Below are positions 5,298-62,359 of a stretch of 64,000 nt of DNA, piece after piece. The stretch is from a virus. The stretch is from positions 88,337 to 152,336 of the IMG/VR virus record IMGVR_UViG_3300023179_000017, one strand, 5' to 3'. Every line of letters begins with the position of its first letter. Positions within the stretch are counted from its first letter, which is position 1. The notes under the pieces were generated by a model. That model saw only the letters and a list, made by a program, of their open reading frames with translations, was not told the origin of the DNA and made no database searches. The translations under genes and the position numbers were made by a program.

Positions 5298-5396
5298 CCA
5301 CATGACTACATAGACTACCCATGTCAAATAGAAAATGATATACTGAGTCAAAGCTCGCTCAAATCATAAATCCATAACAATTCAGGGAGAGGAACT

Positions 5397-50300: not shown

Positions 50301-50552
50301 TTACTCGACGAGTTCTAGGACGGCGCGTTGTTTGTATTTGGAAGAGAAGGCGAAGAGGATACGTCGGACGGAGTGGATGTTGTTTCCTTGTTTGCCGATG
50401 ACTTTTCCTAAGTCCTTCTTGCTGACGACGATTCGAAAGACAACCGTGTCATTAGACATATGGCTTTTCACTTCGACAGATCCTGGTTCATCCACCAGGG
50501 CGCCAATGAGATAGGTTAGTAATTGACAACCTTCGGTTTGAAATTGGTCCAT
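50301..50552 (-). CDS. KH-domain RNA-binding protein (KhpA-like)
   Basis: 83 residues, the full length of KhpA/YlqC. The KH core is VVFRIVVSKKDLGKVIGKQG with the GxxG loop IGKQGN and SVRRILFAF. KhpA binds RNA broadly and partners KhpB in bacteria. A phage copy may affect host or phage message stability or translation. Base composition is somewhat more GC-rich than its neighbours, suggesting acquisition from a cellular source. Confidence 0.85.
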   Translation of the reverse strand: MDQFQTEGCQLLTYLIGALVDEPGSVEVKSHMSNDTVVFRIVVSKKDLGKVIGKQGNNIHSVRRILFAFSSKYKQRAVLELVE

Positions 50553-50672: not shown

Positions 50673-50786
50673 ATGATGGGGGGTTTAGCTATTGTACCTT
50701 TGATAATTTTTGGGGTGGGGGCGGCTGCGGGGAGCGCTTTGACAGGGATTGCTACCTGGCTATTTATGAAAAAGAAAAAGAAGTAG
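50673..50786 (+). CDS. 37-residue membrane mini-protein (plus strand)
   Basis: MMGGLAIVPLIIFGVGAAAG start, one Gly/Ala-rich membrane span, and a lysine-rich tail (MKKKKK). A strong AAGGAGATAA ribosome site precedes it and a hairpin terminator follows. It is the only plus-strand gene in this minus-strand area. Positive tail inside, so N-out topology is likely. Function unknown. Confidence 0.6.
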   Translation: MMGGLAIVPLIIFGVGAAAGSALTGIATWLFMKKKKK

Positions 50787-50787
50787 G

Positions 50788-50815
50788 GAGCCTTAATTTC
50801 TTAAGGCCCCTTATT
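50788..50815 (+). terminator. Terminator hairpin
   Basis: GCCTTAA-TTTC-TTAAGGC followed by CCCCTTATTTCCTTTT, immediately after the plus-strand mini-gene and before the convergent minus-strand gene. Confidence 0.55.
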
Positions 50816-50820
50816 TCCTT

Positions 50821-51264
50821 TTATTCGATTATTTTAAAAGTATCCAAACGAAGATCTCGGTTGAACATACATGAAATGCAATACCTGTTGGTTTCAAGCT
50901 GGAACTTTTTATAATAGTGTTTTACCAATTCTATTTTGGTTTCTTCCGATGCATCTTTTGGGAACTTGTTGTTTTTTTCCATTGAGTTATAAATGTGTCT
51001 TATTGCTTTTTTTAGAGTTTTTCTAGTTGCGAGTAACGCCCTTAAATTTGGGTTTACGATAGATTTGTGATGTAGAATTATTTTTTTAGCCTTGGTCAGC
51101 GGTGCAGGCCAAAACACAAACATAGGTTCGCCACACTTTTGACAATTCCCAACTATTTCACACTCAATTGGACCCATCGTGTGCTTGCCCGAGTTCTTTT
51201 TTGCTTTTTCTATCAGATCCCTATAATCAACATTGAACTTATCTCTTCTTTTTTTAATATCCAT
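50821..51264 (-). CDS. Zinc-binding protein, tandem paralogue 1
   Basis: 147 residues, closely related to 51328..51762 over the whole length, including the start MDIKK..D.FNVDYRDLIEK and the end TFKIIE. Two Cys pairs (NCQKCGEP and YCISCMF) could bind one zinc. The intergenic DNA upstream is also duplicated, so the duplication covered gene plus leader. Function unknown. Confidence 0.65.
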   Translation of the reverse strand: MDIKKRRDKFNVDYRDLIEKAKKNSGKHTMGPIECEIVGNCQKCGEPMFVFWPAPLTKAKKIILHHKSIVNPNLRALLATRKTLKKAIRHIYNSMEKNNKFPKDASEETKIELVKHYYKKFQLETNRYCISCMFNRDLRLDTFKIIE

Positions 51265-51281
51265 GTGTATCTCCTCTGTTA

Positions 51282-51316
51282 TAAAAAGAAGCGGTAATGC
51301 CGGACCATCCGGTACT
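51282..51316 (-). terminator. ATGGT-loop hairpin with T-run, copy 1
   Basis: Minus strand: CCGGATGGTCCGG followed within 10 bp by TTCTTTTTATAA and then the AGAGGAGAT ribosome site of 50821..51264. First of six related intercistronic hairpins. Confidence 0.6.
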
Positions 51317-51327
51317 CTCGTTTCCTT

Positions 51328-51762
51328 TTATTCGATTATTTTAAAAGTACCCAAACGAAGAGCTCGGTTGAAATCACATGAAGTGCACCCGATGGTTTCA
51401 ATCGCGAACATTTTACAATAGGATTTTATCAACTTGGTTTCTTCCGATGCATCTTTTGGGAACTCGTTGTTTTTTTCCATTAAGTTATGAATTTCTATTA
51501 TTCGTTTTTTTAGATCTTCTCTATCTGCGAGTAACGTTCTTAACTCTGGGTTTACGATAGATTTGATAAGTAGAATTATTTTTTTAGCCTTGGTCAGCGG
51601 TGCAGGCCAAACCATAAAAATAGGATCGCCACACTTTTGGCAATTCCCAACTATTTCATACTCAATTGGACCTATCGTGTGCTTGCCCGAGTTCTTTTTT
51701 GCTTTTTCTATCAGATCCCTATAATCAACATTGAACCCATCTCTTATTTTTTTAATATCCAT
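51328..51762 (-). CDS. Zinc-binding protein, tandem paralogue 2
   Basis: 144 residues, the second member of the pair with 50821..51264. The C-terminal third differs most (KLIKSYCKMFAIETIGCTSC against the other copy), while the zinc pairs CQKC and CTSC are kept. Start behind AAGGAGAT. Function unknown. Confidence 0.65.
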   Translation of the reverse strand: MDIKKIRDGFNVDYRDLIEKAKKNSGKHTIGPIEYEIVGNCQKCGDPIFMVWPAPLTKAKKIILLIKSIVNPELRTLLADREDLKKRIIEIHNLMEKNNEFPKDASEETKLIKSYCKMFAIETIGCTSCDFNRALRLGTFKIIE

Positions 51763-51779
51763 GTGTATCTCCTTTGTTA

Positions 51780-51814
51780 TAAAAAGAATAGGGGAGCCAG
51801 AACATCCGGTACTC
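51780..51814 (-). terminator. ATGTT-loop hairpin with T-run, copy 2
   Basis: Minus strand: GAGTACCGGATGTTCTGGCTC with T-run TTCTTTTTATAA, directly before the ribosome site of 51328..51762. The stem differs from copy 1 on both sides but still pairs. Confidence 0.55.
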
Positions 51815-51824
51815 TCGTTTCCTT

Positions 51825-52019
51825 TTATTTTTTTGATATATACATGCCCATTTTCATTCCAAGGGCGAGAATCGTGCCTGTTACTAGAACGCCAATCAAT
51901 GATGATTTAAGCACGTTTAGTTTGGTCGCAAGGTACAGGAACTCAAACACCGGAAATCCGATGAGCATTATTCCAAATACCAGCAACCCCCAGGGGAACT
52001 GTTTTATTTTTTTAATCAT
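51825..52019 (-). CDS. Two-span membrane mini-protein
   Basis: 64 residues with two hydrophobic segments (WGLLVFGIMLIGFPVFEFLY and SLIGVLVTGTILALGMKMGM) and lysines at both ends. Weak ribosome site. Part of a cluster of seven small membrane proteins between 51.8 and 53.3 kb. Function unknown; host-membrane or holin-like roles are possible. Confidence 0.55.
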   Translation of the reverse strand: MIKKIKQFPWGLLVFGIMLIGFPVFEFLYLATKLNVLKSSLIGVLVTGTILALGMKMGMYISKK

Positions 52020-52035
52020 ATTGTTTTCTTTTGTT

Positions 52036-52071
52036 TAAAAAGAATAGGGAAGCCAGACCATCTGACTCCCC
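52036..52071 (-). terminator. ATGGT-loop hairpin with T-run, copy 3
   Basis: Minus strand: GGGAGTCAGATGGTCTGGCTTCCC, bulge of one T, followed by TATTCTTTTTAAAC and the next gene's start region. Nearly identical to copy 4. Confidence 0.65.
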
Positions 52072-52081
52072 AATTTGCTTT

Positions 52082-52291
52082 TTACTTTTTAGGTAGTGCG
52101 GCAAGTGCACATAAGAATGTGTAAATGCCCACCGTTCCTATAACGCCCGGTATAGCAATGCCGAGCAGTATCGAGCTCAACATGGACATGTGGAAGTGAG
52201 TGTGCAATACGTAGCCTGTAACTGCATATATTGCAGTCCACACTGCGAACATTATCGAACTAGCAATTATCGTACTTTTATCGATACCCAT
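52082..52291 (-). CDS. Two-span membrane mini-protein
   Basis: 69 residues, two hydrophobic segments. The C-terminus VGIYTFLCALAALPKK recurs in the 34-residue neighbour 52355..52459, showing exchange of segments between genes. AAAGGAGAAAAC ribosome site. Function unknown. Confidence 0.6.
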   Translation of the reverse strand: MGIDKSTIIASSIMFAVWTAIYAVTGYVLHTHFHMSMLSSILLGIAIPGVIGTVGIYTFLCALAALPKK

Positions 52292-52308
52292 TGTTTTCTC
52301 CTTTGTTA

Positions 52309-52344
52309 TAAAAAGAATGGGGAAGCCAGACCATCTGACTCCCC
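52309..52344 (-). terminator. ATGGT-loop hairpin with T-run, copy 4
   Basis: Minus strand: GGGGAGTCAGATGG then TCTGGCTTCCCC, followed by ATTCTTTTTATAAC and the ribosome site AAAGGAG of 52082..52291. Confidence 0.65.
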
Positions 52345-52354
52345 GATTGGCTTT

Positions 52355-52459
52355 TTACTTTTTAGTTAGTGCGGCAAGTACACATAAGAATGTGTAAATG
52401 CCCACACAAGCGCCAATCGCTGCCGCTAACCCGTCTTGTCCTGTAGGTTTGAATGACAT
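52355..52459 (-). CDS. 34-residue chimeric membrane mini-protein
   Basis: MSFKPTGQDGLAAAIGACVG followed by IYTFLCVLAALTKK. The first half matches the start of 52909..53118 (MSYKPTQRDGIAGAIGA), the second half the end of 52082..52291. It therefore looks like a recombinant of two neighbours. GAAAGGAAAAAC ribosome site. Function unknown. Confidence 0.6.
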   Translation of the reverse strand: MSFKPTGQDGLAAAIGACVGIYTFLCVLAALTKK

Positions 52460-52473
52460 AGTTTTTCCTTTCA

Positions 52474-52513
52474 TAAAAAACAAAGGACCCCACACCATGT
52501 AGAGCCCTTTAAT
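52474..52513 (-). terminator. ATGGT-loop hairpin with T-run, copy 5
   Basis: Minus strand: GGGCTCTACATGG then TGTGGGGTCC, a ten-pair stem, flanked by AAA/TTT and followed by TTTGTTTTTTATG. The stem is different from copies 3 and 4 while the ATGGT centre is kept. Confidence 0.65.
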
Positions 52514-52530
52514 GTCCGCTCTTCATAACT

Positions 52531-52674
52531 TTAAAAGATTCCTAAGAATTTCTTTTTAGGCTTTGAAGAAAAGGCATATTCCCAGAGTTCTTTCACTCCG
52601 AAGAATATTGCCGATGCTATGGCAGCGCTAACTGCCGTTTGTAGATTTTCTTTACCTTGTGGTCCTAGTTTCAT
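52531..52674 (-). CDS. 47-residue membrane-associated mini-protein, paralogue A
   Basis: MKLGPQGKENLQTAVSAAIA, an amphipathic or membrane helix, then VKELWEYAFSSKPKKK. It aligns throughout with 52689..52850 (GKE.L.TA.SAAI, KE.W.+AF.SKP), 14 bp upstream. GGAGGTACTT ribosome site. Function unknown. Confidence 0.6.
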   Translation of the reverse strand: MKLGPQGKENLQTAVSAAIASAIFFGVKELWEYAFSSKPKKKFLGIF

Positions 52675-52688
52675 AAGTACCTCCTTAG

Positions 52689-52850
52689 TTAAGCAGTTTT
52701 AGTTTCTGCTTTAGGTTTTGGTGCTTCAACGGGTTTAGAATGGAACGCCCAATCCCAAACCTCTTTGATCGTCAAGATCACAATCGCAGTGATGGCTGCG
52801 CTTGTGGCTGTCTTGAGATGTTCTTTGCCTTCGTTTCCGAGCTTAAACAT
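52689..52850 (-). CDS. 53-residue membrane-associated mini-protein, paralogue B
   Basis: MFKLGNEGKEHLKTATSAAI then TAIVILTIKEVWDWAFHSKP and a Pro/Lys/Ala-rich tail. Paralogue of 52531..52674. AAGAGGTAAC ribosome site; a terminator hairpin lies immediately upstream. Confidence 0.6.
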   Translation of the reverse strand: MFKLGNEGKEHLKTATSAAITAIVILTIKEVWDWAFHSKPVEAPKPKAETKTA

Positions 52851-52869
52851 AGTTACCTCTTATGTAAGT

Positions 52870-52898
52870 AAAAAGCCCCATATTGCTATGGGGCTTTT
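52870..52898 (-). terminator. Bidirectional intrinsic terminator
   Basis: AAAAGCCCCATA / TATGGGGCTTTT around a four-base loop, between 52909..53118 and 52689..52850. The loop does not belong to the ATGGT set. Confidence 0.75.
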
Positions 52899-52908
52899 AT
52901 ATAAGTGA

Positions 52909-53118
52909 TTAGCTAGCAGCTTGAGCAGGTTGAGAATCTTTCTTCTCTTCTGCTTTAGCAGGTTGAGAATCTTTCTTCTCTTCTGCTTTAACAGGTTGAG
53001 AATCTTTCTTCTCTTCCTTACCTCCGAAGAGGTAATCGTACGTTTTAATTCCGACGAACATTAGAATCGCACCGATTGCTCCAGCGATTCCATCTCTTTG
53101 TGTAGGTTTGTATGACAT
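52909..53118 (-). CDS. Membrane mini-protein with C-terminal repeats
   Basis: 69 residues. MSYKPTQRDGIAGAIGAILM with one membrane span, then three copies of EEKKDSQP(V/A)(K/Q)A encoded by near-identical 30-bp units at 52914..53008. Charged repeats of this kind may vary in number. AAAGGAGAAAAC ribosome site. Function unknown. Confidence 0.65.
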   Translation of the reverse strand: MSYKPTQRDGIAGAIGAILMFVGIKTYDYLFGGKEEKKDSQPVKAEEKKDSQPAKAEEKKDSQPAQAAS

Positions 53119-53135
53119 TGTTTTCTCCTTTGTTA

Positions 53136-53294
53136 TTATCGCTTTTGCGATAAGTTAGTTTTTCTCCAGATCATCTTTTGATCCGAATCTTTTTCGTTTT
53201 TAGTAATTGCGTGAATTAGTACCAAAACGCCGTTAGAAACGGCGCAGATAATAAGTCCTGCAACTCCATCAGCGAATCCGTTATTGTTAGGCAT
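53136..53294 (-). CDS. 52-residue membrane mini-protein
   Basis: MPNNNGFADGVAGLIICAVS then NGVLVLIHAITK (one span) and a charged tail. The N-terminal DG(V/I/L)AG resembles the start of its neighbours. GGAGAAT ribosome site. Function unknown. Confidence 0.55.
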   Translation of the reverse strand: MPNNNGFADGVAGLIICAVSNGVLVLIHAITKNEKDSDQKMIWRKTNLSQKR

Positions 53295-53324
53295 GGTGTA
53301 TTCTCCACGTTATAGCGATCACAT

Positions 53325-53345
53325 TTATTGAAACCATTTCAGTAA
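53325..53345 (-). other. ATGGT-loop hairpin, copy 6 (no T-run)
   Basis: Minus strand TTACTGAAATGGTTTCAATAA, nine pairs with one G-T, between the lipoprotein gene and the 52-residue gene. An outer pair AACGTG/CACGTT extends it. The ATGGT centre matches the other five, but no T-tract follows. Confidence 0.5.
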
Positions 53346-53360
53346 ACGTGAGCGTGCCTT

Positions 53361-54020
53361 CTATTCTTTTTCTTCTGTGGTCGTAACAGGGATGGTGTTT
53401 TTGATTTCAAAAGCGTCATCAAGAGTCACCTCTTTTTTACGTTCTTGAATCCAAACTCCGTTGTTGAATCTGCCTTTGGCTTCATACCGTGTACTAGCTA
53501 ACCCTGCTTTTACACGGGCTGTTGCCATCTCTTGTTGGCAGACGCTGTTGAACTTTGAAAGAGTTTTACTCATCTCTTTCAGAGTGGCAGCGTATTGACG
53601 AGCAGCTTTTAGCCTATCTAGGTAGAACTCTCGTTTTACAACTTTGAGTTCATCTGTAGATGTAAGCCCAATCTGCTCTTTAACTTCTGAAGCTGATTTC
53701 ATGTTGTCGACTTCTGGTATTTCAACTGGTTTTCCGTTGCCCCCGAGCCGTGTATCAGCAACGTCTTTTCTGCATTGGAAAAGCTCTTGATAAAGAAGCT
53801 CTAGTCTCCGTTCGTTATCGGAGTTTTCGATATCTTGAATCTTAAGCTCTGCTTCTGCAGTACGTTCTTTTTGGATAATGACTTGGCGGTCGTTATCGAC
53901 CCCAATCTTTTCATCGTCTATGTTCCCATAAACGGTGATGGCATTATCCACTTGCCTTACTTTGTAGTGGTTGGACGAGCAAGCTGATATAATCAACGAT
54001 AGTAATATGAGTCGTTTCAT
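53361..54020 (-). CDS. Lipoprotein
   Basis: 219 residues. Lipobox LIISAC at residues 9-14 after a basic start (MKRLILLSLIISACSSN), so it is exported and lipid-modified at Cys14. The mature part is helical and charged with a long middle (EAELKIQDIENSDNERRLEL). Possible roles are superinfection exclusion or outer-membrane spanin; sequence does not decide. ACGTTCTCC-preceded start with GGAGAAC site. Confidence 0.7.
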   Translation of the reverse strand: MKRLILLSLIISACSSNHYKVRQVDNAITVYGNIDDEKIGVDNDRQVIIQKERTAEAELKIQDIENSDNERRLELLYQELFQCRKDVADTRLGGNGKPVEIPEVDNMKSASEVKEQIGLTSTDELKVVKREFYLDRLKAARQYAATLKEMSKTLSKFNSVCQQEMATARVKAGLASTRYEAKGRFNNGVWIQERKKEVTLDDAFEIKNTIPVTTTEEKE

Positions 54021-54521: not shown

Positions 54522-54607
54522 ATAACAGTTGTATTGTTGTATATCAGAACTGTTCGTTCATCTCTTTTAAGCTCAGTTACAATCAAATTTTAATAAGGAG
54601 GATGTAT

Positions 54608-55504
54608 ATGAAGGCATTTTTTGTCGTTTTGTGCTTTTTGTCGTCGTTGGTAAGAGCAGATATCGGGTTAATGAAGCCTAATCAGGACGCTGATAAGGCA
54701 TTGAAAGAGGTTTTAGCTGAAAAAACTAATACTAGAGAGGGAAGTACCTGGGAAGCAGGGCCTAATTGGACGCTCAATTACAAGATTGAGACCATTACAG
54801 GGCTTAATGTACCTAAGGATTGGAAGAAAAACGCTGTGTTTGAGACGGTAAAGCTAAGAGAAGCCCTTCCTAAGTCTTGGGATTGGCGAGAAACCCTAGG
54901 AAGTAACCTTCCACCGATTAAGAATCAAAGAAGCTGTGGCTCTTGCTGGGCGTTTGGTACGGTGGCAGCCTTTGAATTTGCCTATTCGATGAAGAATAAG
55001 TCGGTTCGTCAGTTCTCAGAGCAAGAATTAGTTAGCTGTTCTAGCTATGGTAGCTGTGGGGGAGGATTTTTTGCCCACGGATATCATGTAAAACCTGGAG
55101 CAGCCCTTAGTTCTGACTTCCCTTATGTCGCTTCTAATGCCAGATGTAAGCCAAACCTAAAACATGAGGACAAATTGGTAGGCTTTAAGTTCCTGGGGTC
55201 TAAGAATAAGAACCCAACGACCGAAGAATTAAAGGCTGCTATTAAACAGTATGGGGCGATACCCGTTACTGTCACTGCAAACAACGCTATGAGTGCTTAT
55301 AAGGGTGGTATCTTCACTGGTTGTACTGCAATGCCAACTAATCATATCGTTGCTTTAGTCGGTTGGGGCTATGATGAGAAGACCAAGAAGGAATACGCCA
55401 TCATGAGGAACAGCTGGGGAGAGAGTTGGGGCGAAAAAGGATATATGCGTATGCCTTGGGGATGTAGCAGACTTGGGGAAGATGCCACTTTGGTGGAATA
55501 CTAA
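54608..55504 (+). CDS. Secreted papain-like (C1A) cysteine protease
   Basis: 298 residues starting at the ATG at 54608, 7 bp after AAGGAGG. Signal peptide MKAFFVVLCFLSSLVRA. A short pro-region, then LPKSWDWRE and PIKNQRSCGSCWAFGTVAAF (oxyanion Gln and catalytic Cys), ELVSCSSYGSCGGGF, TNHIVALVGWG (His) and MRNSWGESWGEKGYMRM (Asn). All four catalytic positions are intact, so activity is expected outside the cytoplasm. Such enzymes are rare in phages. Confidence 0.9.
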   Translation: MKAFFVVLCFLSSLVRADIGLMKPNQDADKALKEVLAEKTNTREGSTWEAGPNWTLNYKIETITGLNVPKDWKKNAVFETVKLREALPKSWDWRETLGSNLPPIKNQRSCGSCWAFGTVAAFEFAYSMKNKSVRQFSEQELVSCSSYGSCGGGFFAHGYHVKPGAALSSDFPYVASNARCKPNLKHEDKLVGFKFLGSKNKNPTTEELKAAIKQYGAIPVTVTANNAMSAYKGGIFTGCTAMPTNHIVALVGWGYDEKTKKEYAIMRNSWGESWGEKGYMRMPWGCSRLGEDATLVEY

Positions 55505-57288: not shown

Positions 57289-57950
57289 TCAAATAAGACC
57301 GTCTGCGTTTTCCCTAACTTCTGTTGAGTTAGGGATTTTGCTGACCAGTCGTGGTTTTGTAGCAAGGCCCATCTTGGAAAGGCTAACTAGCCAGAACCGA
57401 GAGGCTTGAATACCTTGCTTTCTTCTTTGAACCGTATGTCGGTGTCGGTCGTGTTTTACAATCACCCCAGAAGAAATGAGCTGATTGCCAACCGAGGTCA
57501 TAGAGCCAGTAATGTGACCTGTGACGTTTTTCTTTACCACCTCAATTACCCGTTCAGGCATGAGGTAGGCGTGGTCTGGGTCATCTTGTGGATCTACGAA
57601 CCCGACCATTTCGGCATTAGGTTCATCGAAGTTGGCAAGACCCTGAATGCGGGCCTTACCTGCTACCAGAAGCGCAATGAGATTACTCAAGAATACGTTT
57701 CCGGCTTGCTCGTCAGAGCATCTAACAACCATGAGTCCTTTGACATCTTGGATATATGCCCAGCACTCATCAAGAAGCGTTTTTGATTCTTTGTTCTGAA
57801 TAATACCTTTGTATTCTAGGAACTGAATAAAGAGCTGCCAGCCTGTGTAGGCAAGGCTTAGGTTATTACAGATACGAGAATCGTTAGTTTGGTTATTTAC
57901 TTCTGCCTGTAACTCTTCTCTAACATCTGCAAGCCTTTTGATGATCTCAG
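57289..57950 (-). CDS. C-terminal part of the primase-helicase in a shifted frame
   Basis: The first ATG is at 57732 (147 residues, ribosome site AAAGGA), but the same frame stays open with protein-like sequence up to about 57950: LDKSEIIKRLADVREELQAE, then NNQTNDSRICNNLSLAYTGW and LLDECWAYIQDVKG. This text continues naturally from the primase-helicase, whose own frame ends within about 40 bp in low-quality sequence. It is either the product of frameshifting, a split gene, or the result of a missing base in the read. The end NADGLI matches the end of 44958..46034. Confidence 0.6.
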
Positions 57951-60557
57951 ACTTATCCAGTTGAAGAACCAGTGAATGTAGTGTGGAGTAACGCCTCTGT
58001 AGTTATCAGAGTGCACTCGACACTGTTCCCAAGCACTTCGGCTTTTCATTTGGTCTACCTTCGGATAGGCAATCAGAATAAGTCGACCAATGAAAGAAGC
58101 TTCGTTCTCTGGTGTTAGTTCGCCTGTCATTATGTACAAGCTTCGGTTTACTTTAGCGCCTCGTTGTTTTCCTTCTTTGGTGAGAGCACCTCTAACGGAA
58201 TACTCGTAAGCGTTGTGAACCGTATTGATGACGTTTGTCGTTTGAGACAGGTTGATAGCTTTATAGTCGTCCGCCATGAGGAGCGCATCTCGGAACATAT
58301 ATCCGTAATCGGTCATACTGTTTCCGGTCGTTCTCCAGTTAGCGGGGCCTTTAAAGTCACCCCAGAATCTTTGAAGCATTTTCGCAAGCTCCGTTTTACC
58401 GTAGCCGCTGGTTCCTTCTAGCCATAGGACGGGACGGAACTCCAGTCCCAAGTAAGAGATAAGCCCCGCCATCATGGAGTGGCCCATTCCCACCATTGCA
58501 GGTCCTCTGGGAAATGCTTGAAAGAAATCCCTCTTAAAGTGAAGAAGGGTTTCTGTTAACTCACTGTCAGACAGCAACTTAAAGTCTAGGTTGCTTGCAT
58601 GGTCTTTGTCTCTGATATCGACAGGTTTGGAAGTGTTTGGTTTTACTCCCTCTTTGTCGACTAGGACTGAAGGCATGAGATAGCTTCCGTCATACCATCC
58701 TTGTGTACCATAGAACACGGTTCGTTTTCTTCTTGCCGTGTGACTATCGTGCTCCATGACGGCTTGTCTTAGTAAAGGCAAGTCGGATGGAAGGATGTTA
58801 AATGAGGAGCCGCCAATCTGACTAAAGAAGACGAGCATTTCGGAAGTATCCCACCAAGTTCGTTCAGGTATTTCAAACTGTACCTCTCGGTCTTGGCTTC
58901 GATACTTTCCTACAAATGTCAGCGACTTCTTTTTATTGTCATCAATCACTGAGCGTTCTTCTTCTATGTAGATATCAAACGTAGCAAAGGTTCTTACTTC
59001 TTCGCTATTTCCTTTGCCTGGCTTAATGACGGCATAACCGTGTGGATGAATCTTTTGGTAAAGATTACTTCCCACAGCAATGATGTCGTCTCTTTTCTTA
59101 GCGGTATCGGCAAACTCTTTTTCCTTTTCAGCTTTGGCTTCCTTAAACATTTTTGCCAAATCGCTCTTCTTAATAAGTTTCAAAGAGTCGATTTTGTTCT
59201 TTAAGAAAGCTTGCTGATTAGAATCAAATACGGTTGCCCGCTTAGTTAAGTCAGCAAGGCGTTGTGGAATGTTTGCTTCCGGCTCGTTCTTTAGGTCTTC
59301 GACTTCTTTGATGAGTTTAGCTAGGTAGTCCTCGCCTGATCCAAACGCATAGCGAATGGGGCTTGGTTCTGGCCACTCACTTTCAGGTAAGTCGTTTCTA
59401 ACTGTAACAACGCCGTCCACACGTTCGATAGGTGGTTTCTTATTAAAGCACTTTGTTCCTTTGACGCAGACGCCGACTTCTTGGAGCTTCTTACAAGTCC
59501 AAGGAGCGTAGTCTTTGTCGATAGACTGTTGGAGCTGTTTTAAATCAGCGTCCGATTTTGCCCATCCAGGAACATTCTTTTGAAACCACTCAAGCCCGTC
59601 TGAAGTGTGCATTGCCATGTGGAACATTGCCATCCCCTCAAAGTGGGAAGGCTGGATTCCAGTAAGGCATTTGTCTTTTAGATTTCTAAAAGCCTGACAC
59701 CCTTCTAGGACTTTTTCATAAGAGCCGCTCAGTGGTGGTTGCCATTTAGTTCTTTTGTTAGTGTTCTTCTTTCCTACAAGGCCACTGACTTCGGCTACCT
59801 TAATTCCTTCTTTCTCCATCACGCGGTTTAATTCTTCTTGTGTGATGACAGGAATTTTTGAAAGGTATTCCCACTGCTCGATAATCACTTGATTGCTATC
59901 ATCGACAAAGCAATTCTTTCCCTTAGAAAAGTTAGGCTCAATCATAGGCGGCTTGATACCGTTTCCGATACCGCTTGTGATGCGTAACTGTTTTGGGAAT
60001 ATTTCTGGAACTGCTTTTAGTCCCTGATGAACAATGTTGATGATTCCGGCTTTATCGAGAAGGTCCATTGCAAAGGCATGGAACTTCTCAGATGGGATAC
60101 CTTCGGAAAAGAAGAAGTACAGGTGAAACCCAGCTCCTGTGCTTCTTGCAATTCCATAAGGTACTTTCATTCGCCTTGCGATGCTGGCTACTCTCTTCAC
60201 ATCATCGAACGTATATCCAATCTCTTCTTTACCTGGCTTCATGTCGAAGTCGATAGCCCCAAAACGGGTGGTACCGTCTTCATGAAGTAAGTAAACGAGT
60301 TGGGATTCTTCTCCTGTGATGTGTTTTATAACTGTGTCTTCTGATACAGGTGTGTAGACCCTGATTTCACAAGCAGAGCAAGGAATGCCATCTTTAAGTC
60401 GGATATGGCAGTTGGGTTTCCAATAGTTGTCGCAAACAGGGTTGTAGCCGCGTTTAACGGTTCCATCCTCAGTTGTGTGCTCCCATTGCCGACCATAGAC
60501 ATCCCGTCGGCCATGGAAGCGAGACATGAATAGCCTCGCTTTTTCTTTAATGTTCAT
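57897..60557 (-). CDS. Primase-helicase (AEP-type primase with SF3/DUF927-like helicase)
   Basis: 886 residues starting at ATG 60557 behind GGGGGAAA. The N-terminal primase has FGAIDFDMKP (metal Asp pair) and ARSTGAGFHLYFFF, matching archaeo-eukaryotic-type primases; a zinc-like CDNYWKPNCHIRLKDGIPCSAC precedes it. The helicase has Walker A LEGTSGYGKTEL and Walker B ALLMADDYK. It would open the fork and prime replication with the Pol I-type polymerase and clamp. The last 16 or so residues (NWISLRSSKG and on) look like out-of-frame text; see the preceding entry. Confidence 0.85.
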   Translation of the reverse strand: MNIKEKARLFMSRFHGRRDVYGRQWEHTTEDGTVKRGYNPVCDNYWKPNCHIRLKDGIPCSACEIRVYTPVSEDTVIKHITGEESQLVYLLHEDGTTRFGAIDFDMKPGKEEIGYTFDDVKRVASIARRMKVPYGIARSTGAGFHLYFFFSEGIPSEKFHAFAMDLLDKAGIINIVHQGLKAVPEIFPKQLRITSGIGNGIKPPMIEPNFSKGKNCFVDDSNQVIIEQWEYLSKIPVITQEELNRVMEKEGIKVAEVSGLVGKKNTNKRTKWQPPLSGSYEKVLEGCQAFRNLKDKCLTGIQPSHFEGMAMFHMAMHTSDGLEWFQKNVPGWAKSDADLKQLQQSIDKDYAPWTCKKLQEVGVCVKGTKCFNKKPPIERVDGVVTVRNDLPESEWPEPSPIRYAFGSGEDYLAKLIKEVEDLKNEPEANIPQRLADLTKRATVFDSNQQAFLKNKIDSLKLIKKSDLAKMFKEAKAEKEKEFADTAKKRDDIIAVGSNLYQKIHPHGYAVIKPGKGNSEEVRTFATFDIYIEEERSVIDDNKKKSLTFVGKYRSQDREVQFEIPERTWWDTSEMLVFFSQIGGSSFNILPSDLPLLRQAVMEHDSHTARRKRTVFYGTQGWYDGSYLMPSVLVDKEGVKPNTSKPVDIRDKDHASNLDFKLLSDSELTETLLHFKRDFFQAFPRGPAMVGMGHSMMAGLISYLGLEFRPVLWLEGTSGYGKTELAKMLQRFWGDFKGPANWRTTGNSMTDYGYMFRDALLMADDYKAINLSQTTNVINTVHNAYEYSVRGALTKEGKQRGAKVNRSLYIMTGELTPENEASFIGRLILIAYPKVDQMKSRSAWEQCRVHSDNYRGVTPHYIHWFFNWISLRSSKGLQMLEKSYRQK

Positions 60558-62359
60558 TGTTTCCCCCACATATCTAGCAAGAGCTGATCTGGATCAATCA
60601 GCTTTTGTTGGTTCCGATTCTTTAATTGCAGTACTTCGTATATGGCGGTGTCGATAGAGTTCTTACACAGTAGGTAGTAAACAAACATGGGATTTTTTTG
60701 CCCTGCTCGTTCAATTCTTTTAATCGACTGATAGTTGTCTTCAGCACTATGGTCGATTGAAAAGAACACCATGTAATGCGCCATTGTAAAAGTAATTCCG
60801 TGAGCTGCGGATTTAGGATGTAGTATTGCAATCCTCACTGAATTATCTTTGATAAAGGAATTGATGTTTTCCATATTCCTTTTTGAAGTGTTACCTCCAT
60901 ATACAGAAACTGCGTTGTGGTGCTTATACCTATCTTCTATCAATCTTATTTCCCACTGATACTGCGCATAGATGACTACTTTTTTATCGATTCCTATTTC
61001 GTCTTCGATAAGAGAGTCAAGCTCTGTTAGTTTTGGATTATTTGGCAGAGGGTGCGCTTCTTCTAAGTGGTCGATAATAAAGCCGCTAGTGATTTGTCTA
61101 AGCTTCATGATTTGGGCCACACGAACAGGAGCCGTGATACGCTGGTCGTCAATAACGACTCGTAAGCGTTCCTTCATATCCAAGTAGTGTTTCTTCTGCT
61201 CTGAGTCCATATCAAGCATACGCCGAATCGTTGTGAGTTCGGGCATGTCTTGAAGGTGGTCTCTAAGCCTTGCTCTAAAAGAAGCTGGGTTAATAATCGA
61301 AGATACTTTTTCAATCGCATCTGATTTAGGCACCCATTTTTTTGGAGTCTTGTATGTCATGGGCCGGTTTCTCAGTTCTTTAGGCCGCATGTCAACTACT
61401 TGCATATAGCTACTTTGAAAATCGTTGTAGGTCGGCTCTAAAAAAATACCGTCCGGATCTAAAAAGTAGAATTGGCCCCACAAGTTGTGTGGTCCGTTTG
61501 GTGCTGGTGTTCCGCTCATGATGACTCGCCAGTCTGCATTATGAGCTACCTCTAATAACGCTCTTCCAAACTGCCCTCCTTTGATGTGCTGATTTAATCC
61601 ATGAAATCCTTTTAAGATAGTGCTTTCATCAACTACTATTTTTTCAAAGTTCTTTTCTTTTAAGTAGTCTTTAAAAACACGAAGGCCGTCATGGTTAATT
61701 AAGAACACATCGGCATCAGAGTTTAGCTTGTCCAAGATTTTTTCCGTTCGCTTTTTACCGCTAGGTTCCCAAAGGGTTACGACTTTTAAGTCAGTAAACT
61801 TTTGAGCGTCTTCCATCCAACCAGATTCCAGAGTGGCGAGCTTGGCACAGATAAGAGTTTTTCCTCTTTGGATAATCCCATCTTTGATGTGCTGTTCCGT
61901 AGAGGTCAGCACAATATAGGTTTTACCCATTCCGCAGTCTGCAAACAACGCAGCACGTTTTATATTTTTTAGAAATACAACGGCTCTGTGTTGGTACTCT
62001 GCAAGTGGTGGTAACTTGTAGTTGTACGTTGGAAGCCTTTCTATAGGCAATTGTTTTATTTTAAGTGATCGCTCAACCATGTCATTGATTTCTTCTTGAC
62101 GCTTTAGTAGTCGAGCAATTTCTGGAGTTTGCGGTATTGCGACATTAGGAAATTGTTGTTGTAGTCGTCTTAGATTTTGAACACTGATATTAAGTAAAAA
62201 AGCACAGGCTCGTTTGCTGTGCCGCGCATATCCTTTTAAGTGTTTCCAGTGATGCACCACATCGCTTGGAAATATGACACTTCTTGGATCTGCGCCTGGA
62301 GGAAGCTGCCCATCCCAATTAAGGACAAGGCAGTCCTTCCAAGTCGATACTGTGTTCAT
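60554..62359 (-). CDS. SNF2-family DEAD-like helicase/translocase
   Basis: 601 residues. Motif I ALFADCGMGKTYIVL, motif II IVVDESTILK (DEST instead of DEAH), motif III MSGTPAPNGPHNLWGQFYFL, motif IV KVVIYAQYQWEIRLI and motif V/VI YQSIKRIERAGQKNPMFVYY. Phage SNF2-like proteins of this size act in replication restart or recombination. ATGA overlap with the primase-helicase suggests a joint role. Confidence 0.85.
   Translation of the reverse strand: MNTVSTWKDCLVLNWDGQLPPGADPRSVIFPSDVVHHWKHLKGYARHSKRACAFLLNISVQNLRRLQQQFPNVAIPQTPEIARLLKRQEEINDMVERSLKIKQLPIERLPTYNYKLPPLAEYQHRAVVFLKNIKRAALFADCGMGKTYIVLTSTEQHIKDGIIQRGKTLICAKLATLESGWMEDAQKFTDLKVVTLWEPSGKKRTEKILDKLNSDADVFLINHDGLRVFKDYLKEKNFEKIVVDESTILKGFHGLNQHIKGGQFGRALLEVAHNADWRVIMSGTPAPNGPHNLWGQFYFLDPDGIFLEPTYNDFQSSYMQVVDMRPKELRNRPMTYKTPKKWVPKSDAIEKVSSIINPASFRARLRDHLQDMPELTTIRRMLDMDSEQKKHYLDMKERLRVVIDDQRITAPVRVAQIMKLRQITSGFIIDHLEEAHPLPNNPKLTELDSLIEDEIGIDKKVVIYAQYQWEIRLIEDRYKHHNAVSVYGGNTSKRNMENINSFIKDNSVRIAILHPKSAAHGITFTMAHYMVFFSIDHSAEDNYQSIKRIERAGQKNPMFVYYLLCKNSIDTAIYEVLQLKNRNQQKLIDPDQLLLDMWGKQ

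Follow-up and report, generated by a model that had tools for sequence, protein, structure and literature searches.

Intrinsic (rho-independent) terminators consist of a stable G+C-rich stem with a short loop and a U-tract directly after the stem, and they also occur within operons. Hairpins can have another origin as well, as template switching can create and maintain them and single events can make paired changes (PMC8794818). CsrA/RsmA-binding hairpins, in turn, are short, are centred on a loop with GGA and lie near ribosome sites. Here we describe an array of hairpins between small phage genes, called H0 to H6 or by their first position, which resembles each of these systems in part. Like intrinsic terminators within operons, H3, H4, H5 and the 52871 hairpin have an 11-14 bp stem, a short loop and a U-tract; unlike them, the hairpins are followed by the next ribosome site within a few bases with no promoter between, H6 has no U-tract, and the cores of H1 and H2 are weak. 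As in the template-switch (quasipalindrome) evolution of hairpins (PMC8794818), new stem sequence still pairs and homology stops at the apex; such an event is one possible origin of the stems here. The short, loop-centred form and the position near ribosome sites are shared with CsrA/RsmA sites, but the array loop is AUGGU, without GGA in it.

Hairpins between small membrane-protein genes

The window analysed, a stretch of 64,000 nucleotides, forms the end (positions 88337-152336) of an uncultivated-virus record of 152,336 bases. By PHROGs the record belongs to a tailed phage, with terminase large subunit, portal, major head protein, DNA polymerase and helicase, and no close relative of it was found in the collections searched. 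The small genes of the array all lie on the minus strand, so that the hairpins are to be read on that strand.

51825-52019, 52082-52291, 52355-52459, 52531-52674, 52689-52850, 52909-53118 and 53136-53294, minus strand: seven small ORFs, membrane proteins by sequence reading

Some of these seven ORFs (51825-53294) are mosaic paralogues, and neither of the two examined for families (52909-53118 and 52082-52291) gave a significant match. In one small membrane protein the C-terminal tail contains an in-frame tandem repeat, EEKKDSQPAKA (52919-53016, minus strand). The surroundings hold the following genes.

50301-50552, minus strand: KhpA/KhpB-type KH-domain protein, a putative RNA chaperone, adjoining the array (PF13083, E 2e-15)
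50673-50786, plus strand: lone opposite-strand small membrane-protein ORF whose end falls within H0
54602-55504, plus strand: papain-family cysteine protease, signal-like sequence at the N-terminus (PF00112, E 8e-51)
57897-60569, minus strand: primase with the AEP domain of TOTE conflict systems (PF22548, E 9e-45)

An SbcC-like ATPase is a further neighbour of the array. The primase had no tblastn match among 50,697 phage records.

The sequence-only reading had placed hairpins at six positions between the small genes, and all six are present, on the minus strand, as H1 to H6. Three more array hairpins were absent from its list (H0, 52871-52898 and 53136-53153).

53319-53351, minus strand: H6, stem of 15 positions including one mismatch, AUGGU loop, T-run absent
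53136-53153, minus strand: 53136 hairpin, 7-bp TTATCGC-AAAA-GCGATAA, before the ribosome site of gene 52909-53118
52871-52898, minus strand: 52871 hairpin, terminator-like, GCAA loop, T-run after the stem, before gene 52689-52850
52481-52511, minus strand: H5, terminator-like, 14-bp stem, loop AUGGU, then GUUUUUU
52320-52344, minus strand: H4, 11-bp stem GGGGAGTCAGA/TCTGGCTTCCC, TGG loop, followed by (C)ATTCTTTTT, ahead of gene 52082-52291
52047-52071, minus strand: H3, 11-bp stem and loop the same as in H4, then TATTCTTTTT, before gene 51825-52019
51790-51816, minus strand: H2, weak chimeric hairpin, loop ATGTT, then ATTCTTTTT, before gene 51328-51762
51296-51316, minus strand: H1, inner stem CCGGA/TCCGG with a mismatch farther out, TGG loop, before gene 50821-51264
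50780-50817, minus strand: H0, strong hairpin at the array end, GAAA loop, 3' half GGCTCCCTACTTCTTTTT

H5 immediately precedes the ribosome site of gene 52355-52459, and H6 lies between a lipoprotein-like gene (53361-54020) and the small membrane-protein gene 53136-53294. The described order of T-run and then ribosome site was recovered for H1-H5, with 5-6 T and the ribosome site directly after, and not for H6. The T-run of H1, CTTCTTTTT, begins a few bases beyond the hairpin. H0 may terminate transcription from either side.

Stability differs strongly along the array. In 39-nt folds compared with shuffles, H3, H4 and H5 were strong (z -3.6, -3.2 and -4.65), whereas the cores of H1 (z -0.44) and H2 (z +0.34) were no better than shuffles. 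With the outer A-tract/T-run pairing included, H1 reached z -3.3 and H2 z -2.1; H6 had moderate stability, with z -2.8 when folded as 46 nt and -1.7 as 63 nt. In longer context, z was -4.9 for H4, -5.4 for the 52871 hairpin and -2.8 for the 53136 hairpin. The statement that the stems remain paired is only partly true: it was not borne out by the H1 and H2 cores, and the arms of H2 come from two different hairpins. The stable G+C-rich stem with a short loop that marks a terminator is found in H3, H4, H5 (z -3.2 to -4.65) and the 52871 hairpin, but not in the H1 and H2 cores; the U-tract begins 0-3 nt from the stem in H3, H4 and H5, while in H1 and H2 the T-run is farther off and the stem weak.

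A recurrent loop in the array

The loop itself is a UGG triloop with an A-U closing pair in five of the six named hairpins and UGU in H2. The sequence-only reading had called ATGGT constant apart from one ATGTT; the three additional array hairpins carry GAAA, GCAA and AAAA loops. When the 279 ATGGT sites of the 152-kb record were ranked by constrained hairpin energy, H3, H5, H4, H6 and H1 were all among the best seven, and these five lie within 2 kb. The same closing pair and loop were common to four of six separate gaps, against at most two gaps in shuffles (0 of 2000 as high), in a test in which the gaps were chosen after the data were seen and H1/H2 and H3/H4 were each counted once because of the duplications described below. 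Strong hairpins with other loops stand just 5' of ribosome sites elsewhere in the phage (window 21193-21256, 41181-41218 and 57242-57288), so that this placement is habitual in the genome, and only the loop is a local trait. Unrelated-looking stems with one common loop remain a modest puzzle.

Duplication and probable mosaic recombination within the array

Self-comparison revealed two duplications that include hairpins.

51321-51829, minus strand: tandem-duplication unit with H2 and gene 51328-51762, a copy of 50814-51332 (H1 and gene 50821-51264)
52290-52405, minus strand: duplicated gene 3' end, H4 and leader, a copy of 52020-52132 (with H3)

The H1/H2 unit spans 519 bp at 88%, its proteins being 77% identical, and the H3/H4 duplication spans 116 bp at 93% identity. 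In addition, H4 matches H2/H1 over 60-62 bp at 77-82%, and this similarity starts at the loop and runs through the 3' arm, the T-run, the ribosome site and the gene start. When arms were swapped in silico, the 3' arm of H2 paired with the 5' arm of H3/H4 at -20.5 kcal/mol, compared with -6.0 with its own 5' arm. H2 is a chimera, with a 5' arm of H1 type and a 3' arm of H3/H4 type. Furthermore, the 3' half of H0 can be aligned to those of H2 and H3 (0 of 1000 shuffles as good) despite its GAAA loop, and the 12-mer AATAAAAGGAAA precedes H2, H1 and H0. The different loop on a related 3' half in H0, together with the mismatched arms of H2, shows that strict conservation holds for neither the loop nor the stem of this family.

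Gaps and leaders were taken from simple-script gene calls that missed three array genes; these were entered manually before leaders were compared. Out of the roughly 160 leaders in the genome, the ones most similar to the leader after H5 were those after H4 and H3, whereas the leader of H6 resembled the array no more than it did unrelated genes. The stems of H5 and H6 were not significantly similar to those of the other hairpins (5' arm p 0.06-0.9), and common descent of H6 with the rest is only a possibility.

Searches beyond the record covered both protein and RNA. Neither the small proteins or the 147-aa paralogues nor the neighbouring SbcC-like, primase and helicase genes led to a locus homologous to the array in the collections searched. 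A 17-base hairpin pattern matched four viral contigs, which we took as chance, since three of the matches belong to the coding sequence of a RecA-like gene and the fourth forms no stable hairpin; a 21-base leader pattern had no match in the same collections. Rfam gave only matches below the gathering score, none of them at H1-H6.

Paired changes in the stems

The sequence-only reading had seen compensatory change around a fixed loop and concluded that the RNA element is under selection. Across the six hairpins 90% of cells were paired, and nine of ten pairs had changes on both sides. Six unrelated triloop hairpins of the same genome, however, gave a mean of 9.45 two-sided pairs, so that the count shows only that each of the six is a hairpin, and we rejected it as a sign of selection. 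Within H3/H4 or within H1/H2 there was no two-sided change, the stems of H3 and H4 being identical and H1 and H2 having the same 5' arm. Between these two groups one pair goes from G-C to A-U with the G-U of H2 as intermediate, a change that fits either drift or recombination. In the comparison of H4 with H5, 11 of 11 stem pairs are kept through three two-sided and three one-sided changes, with an ungapped stem similarity that is not significant (p 0.06). This comparison alone lends weak support to maintained pairing, and a template switch could give the same. The conclusion of selection does not hold in that form for a set in which four of the six hairpins are two duplicate pairs, one is a mismatched chimera, a related hairpin has another loop, and the collections searched yielded no homologue from another genome. 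As to the functions offered with it, an attenuator, being terminator-like, agrees with H3, H4 and H5, and recombination at hairpins agrees with H1/H2 and the duplications.

Discussion

We consider it probable (roughly 0.68) that the hairpins are leaky terminators before ribosome sites and that they were spread through tandem duplication and through mosaic recombination, with template-switch repair perhaps involved. The array would have grown by duplication of blocks consisting of hairpin, ribosome site and gene, or of gene end, hairpin and ribosome site, and mosaic recombination would have had its break points at or near the hairpin apex. What H1-H4 have in common in loop, 3' arm, T-run and leader is mostly inherited, and for H5 this is probable, judging by its leader; in H2, recombination would have broken the match of the arms. 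H3, H4, H5 and the 52871 hairpin are most likely partial intrinsic terminators or 3'-end stabilisers, and they may lower expression stepwise through the operon, with part of the polymerases passing on into the following gene. Since there is no promoter room between hairpin and ribosome site, the downstream genes need such read-through or a promoter inside the preceding gene. That the stems differ and still pair could reflect selection for termination or one-step rewriting by replication template switching. What counts against leaky terminators spread by duplication is that the stems of H5 and H6 are dissimilar yet have the same loop, which the shuffles did not match, and that H6 has no U-tract. 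Two other roles were considered and rejected: a leader peptide starting from the AUG in the loop, for which the frames differ between copies and only that of H5 is in frame with its gene, and TATAAC as a promoter, which lies only a few bases 5' of the ribosome site with no leader left.

The loop identity in four separate gaps and the pairs kept between H4 and H5, whose leaders are homologous, could also be explained if AUGGU were the recognition loop of a phage or host RNA-binding protein that coordinates expression or stability of the small genes, the stems merely presenting the loop. We regard this as unlikely, as H1-H4, and probably H5, are explained by shared descent, the loop is UGU in H2 and GAAA in H0, and the H1 and H2 cores are weak; moreover, no Rfam family reached its gathering score and the loop is without the GGA of CsrA sites. 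A narrower form, in which the AUGGU triloop is a dedicated site, perhaps for the adjacent KhpA-like KH protein, that sets termination or translation of the small membrane-protein genes while the stems drift, draws on the position of the KH gene beside the array and is very doubtful: that gene seems to be a separate unit, and we found no link of KhpA-type proteins to an AUGGU loop. Should the loop prove to be bound by a protein, control of a whole operon in this manner would be new for a phage.

Stable hairpins between close-set genes without promoter room would likewise suit sites at which RNA is processed or 3' ends are protected, so that the operon transcript is cut into stable pieces of one gene each, like that of the T7-like early region. 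Typical RNase III substrates are larger than stems of 11-14 bp, and the U-tracts after five of the hairpins are what a terminator needs and not what a processing site needs, which makes this reading improbable too. It is most unlikely that the array is a chance selection of same-loop hairpins from a hairpin-rich genome. Other pentamer loops are as frequent genome-wide (TTTTA 8, CGATG 6), a long ORF elsewhere contains one strong ATGGT hairpin (record position 5319), and three array hairpins with other loops had been omitted; but clustering in six neighbouring gaps was absent from 2000 shuffles, and the duplications are plain. Chance is already unlikely for H1-H5, and for H6 alone it is possible.

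Leaky terminators carried along by duplication and recombination bear on how such arrays are read. A constant loop with changing stems, which is commonly read as a sign of selection, can largely stem from tandem duplication and recombination of terminator-bearing gene blocks, and H2, with halves of different origin, is a clear example of a pattern made by recombination.
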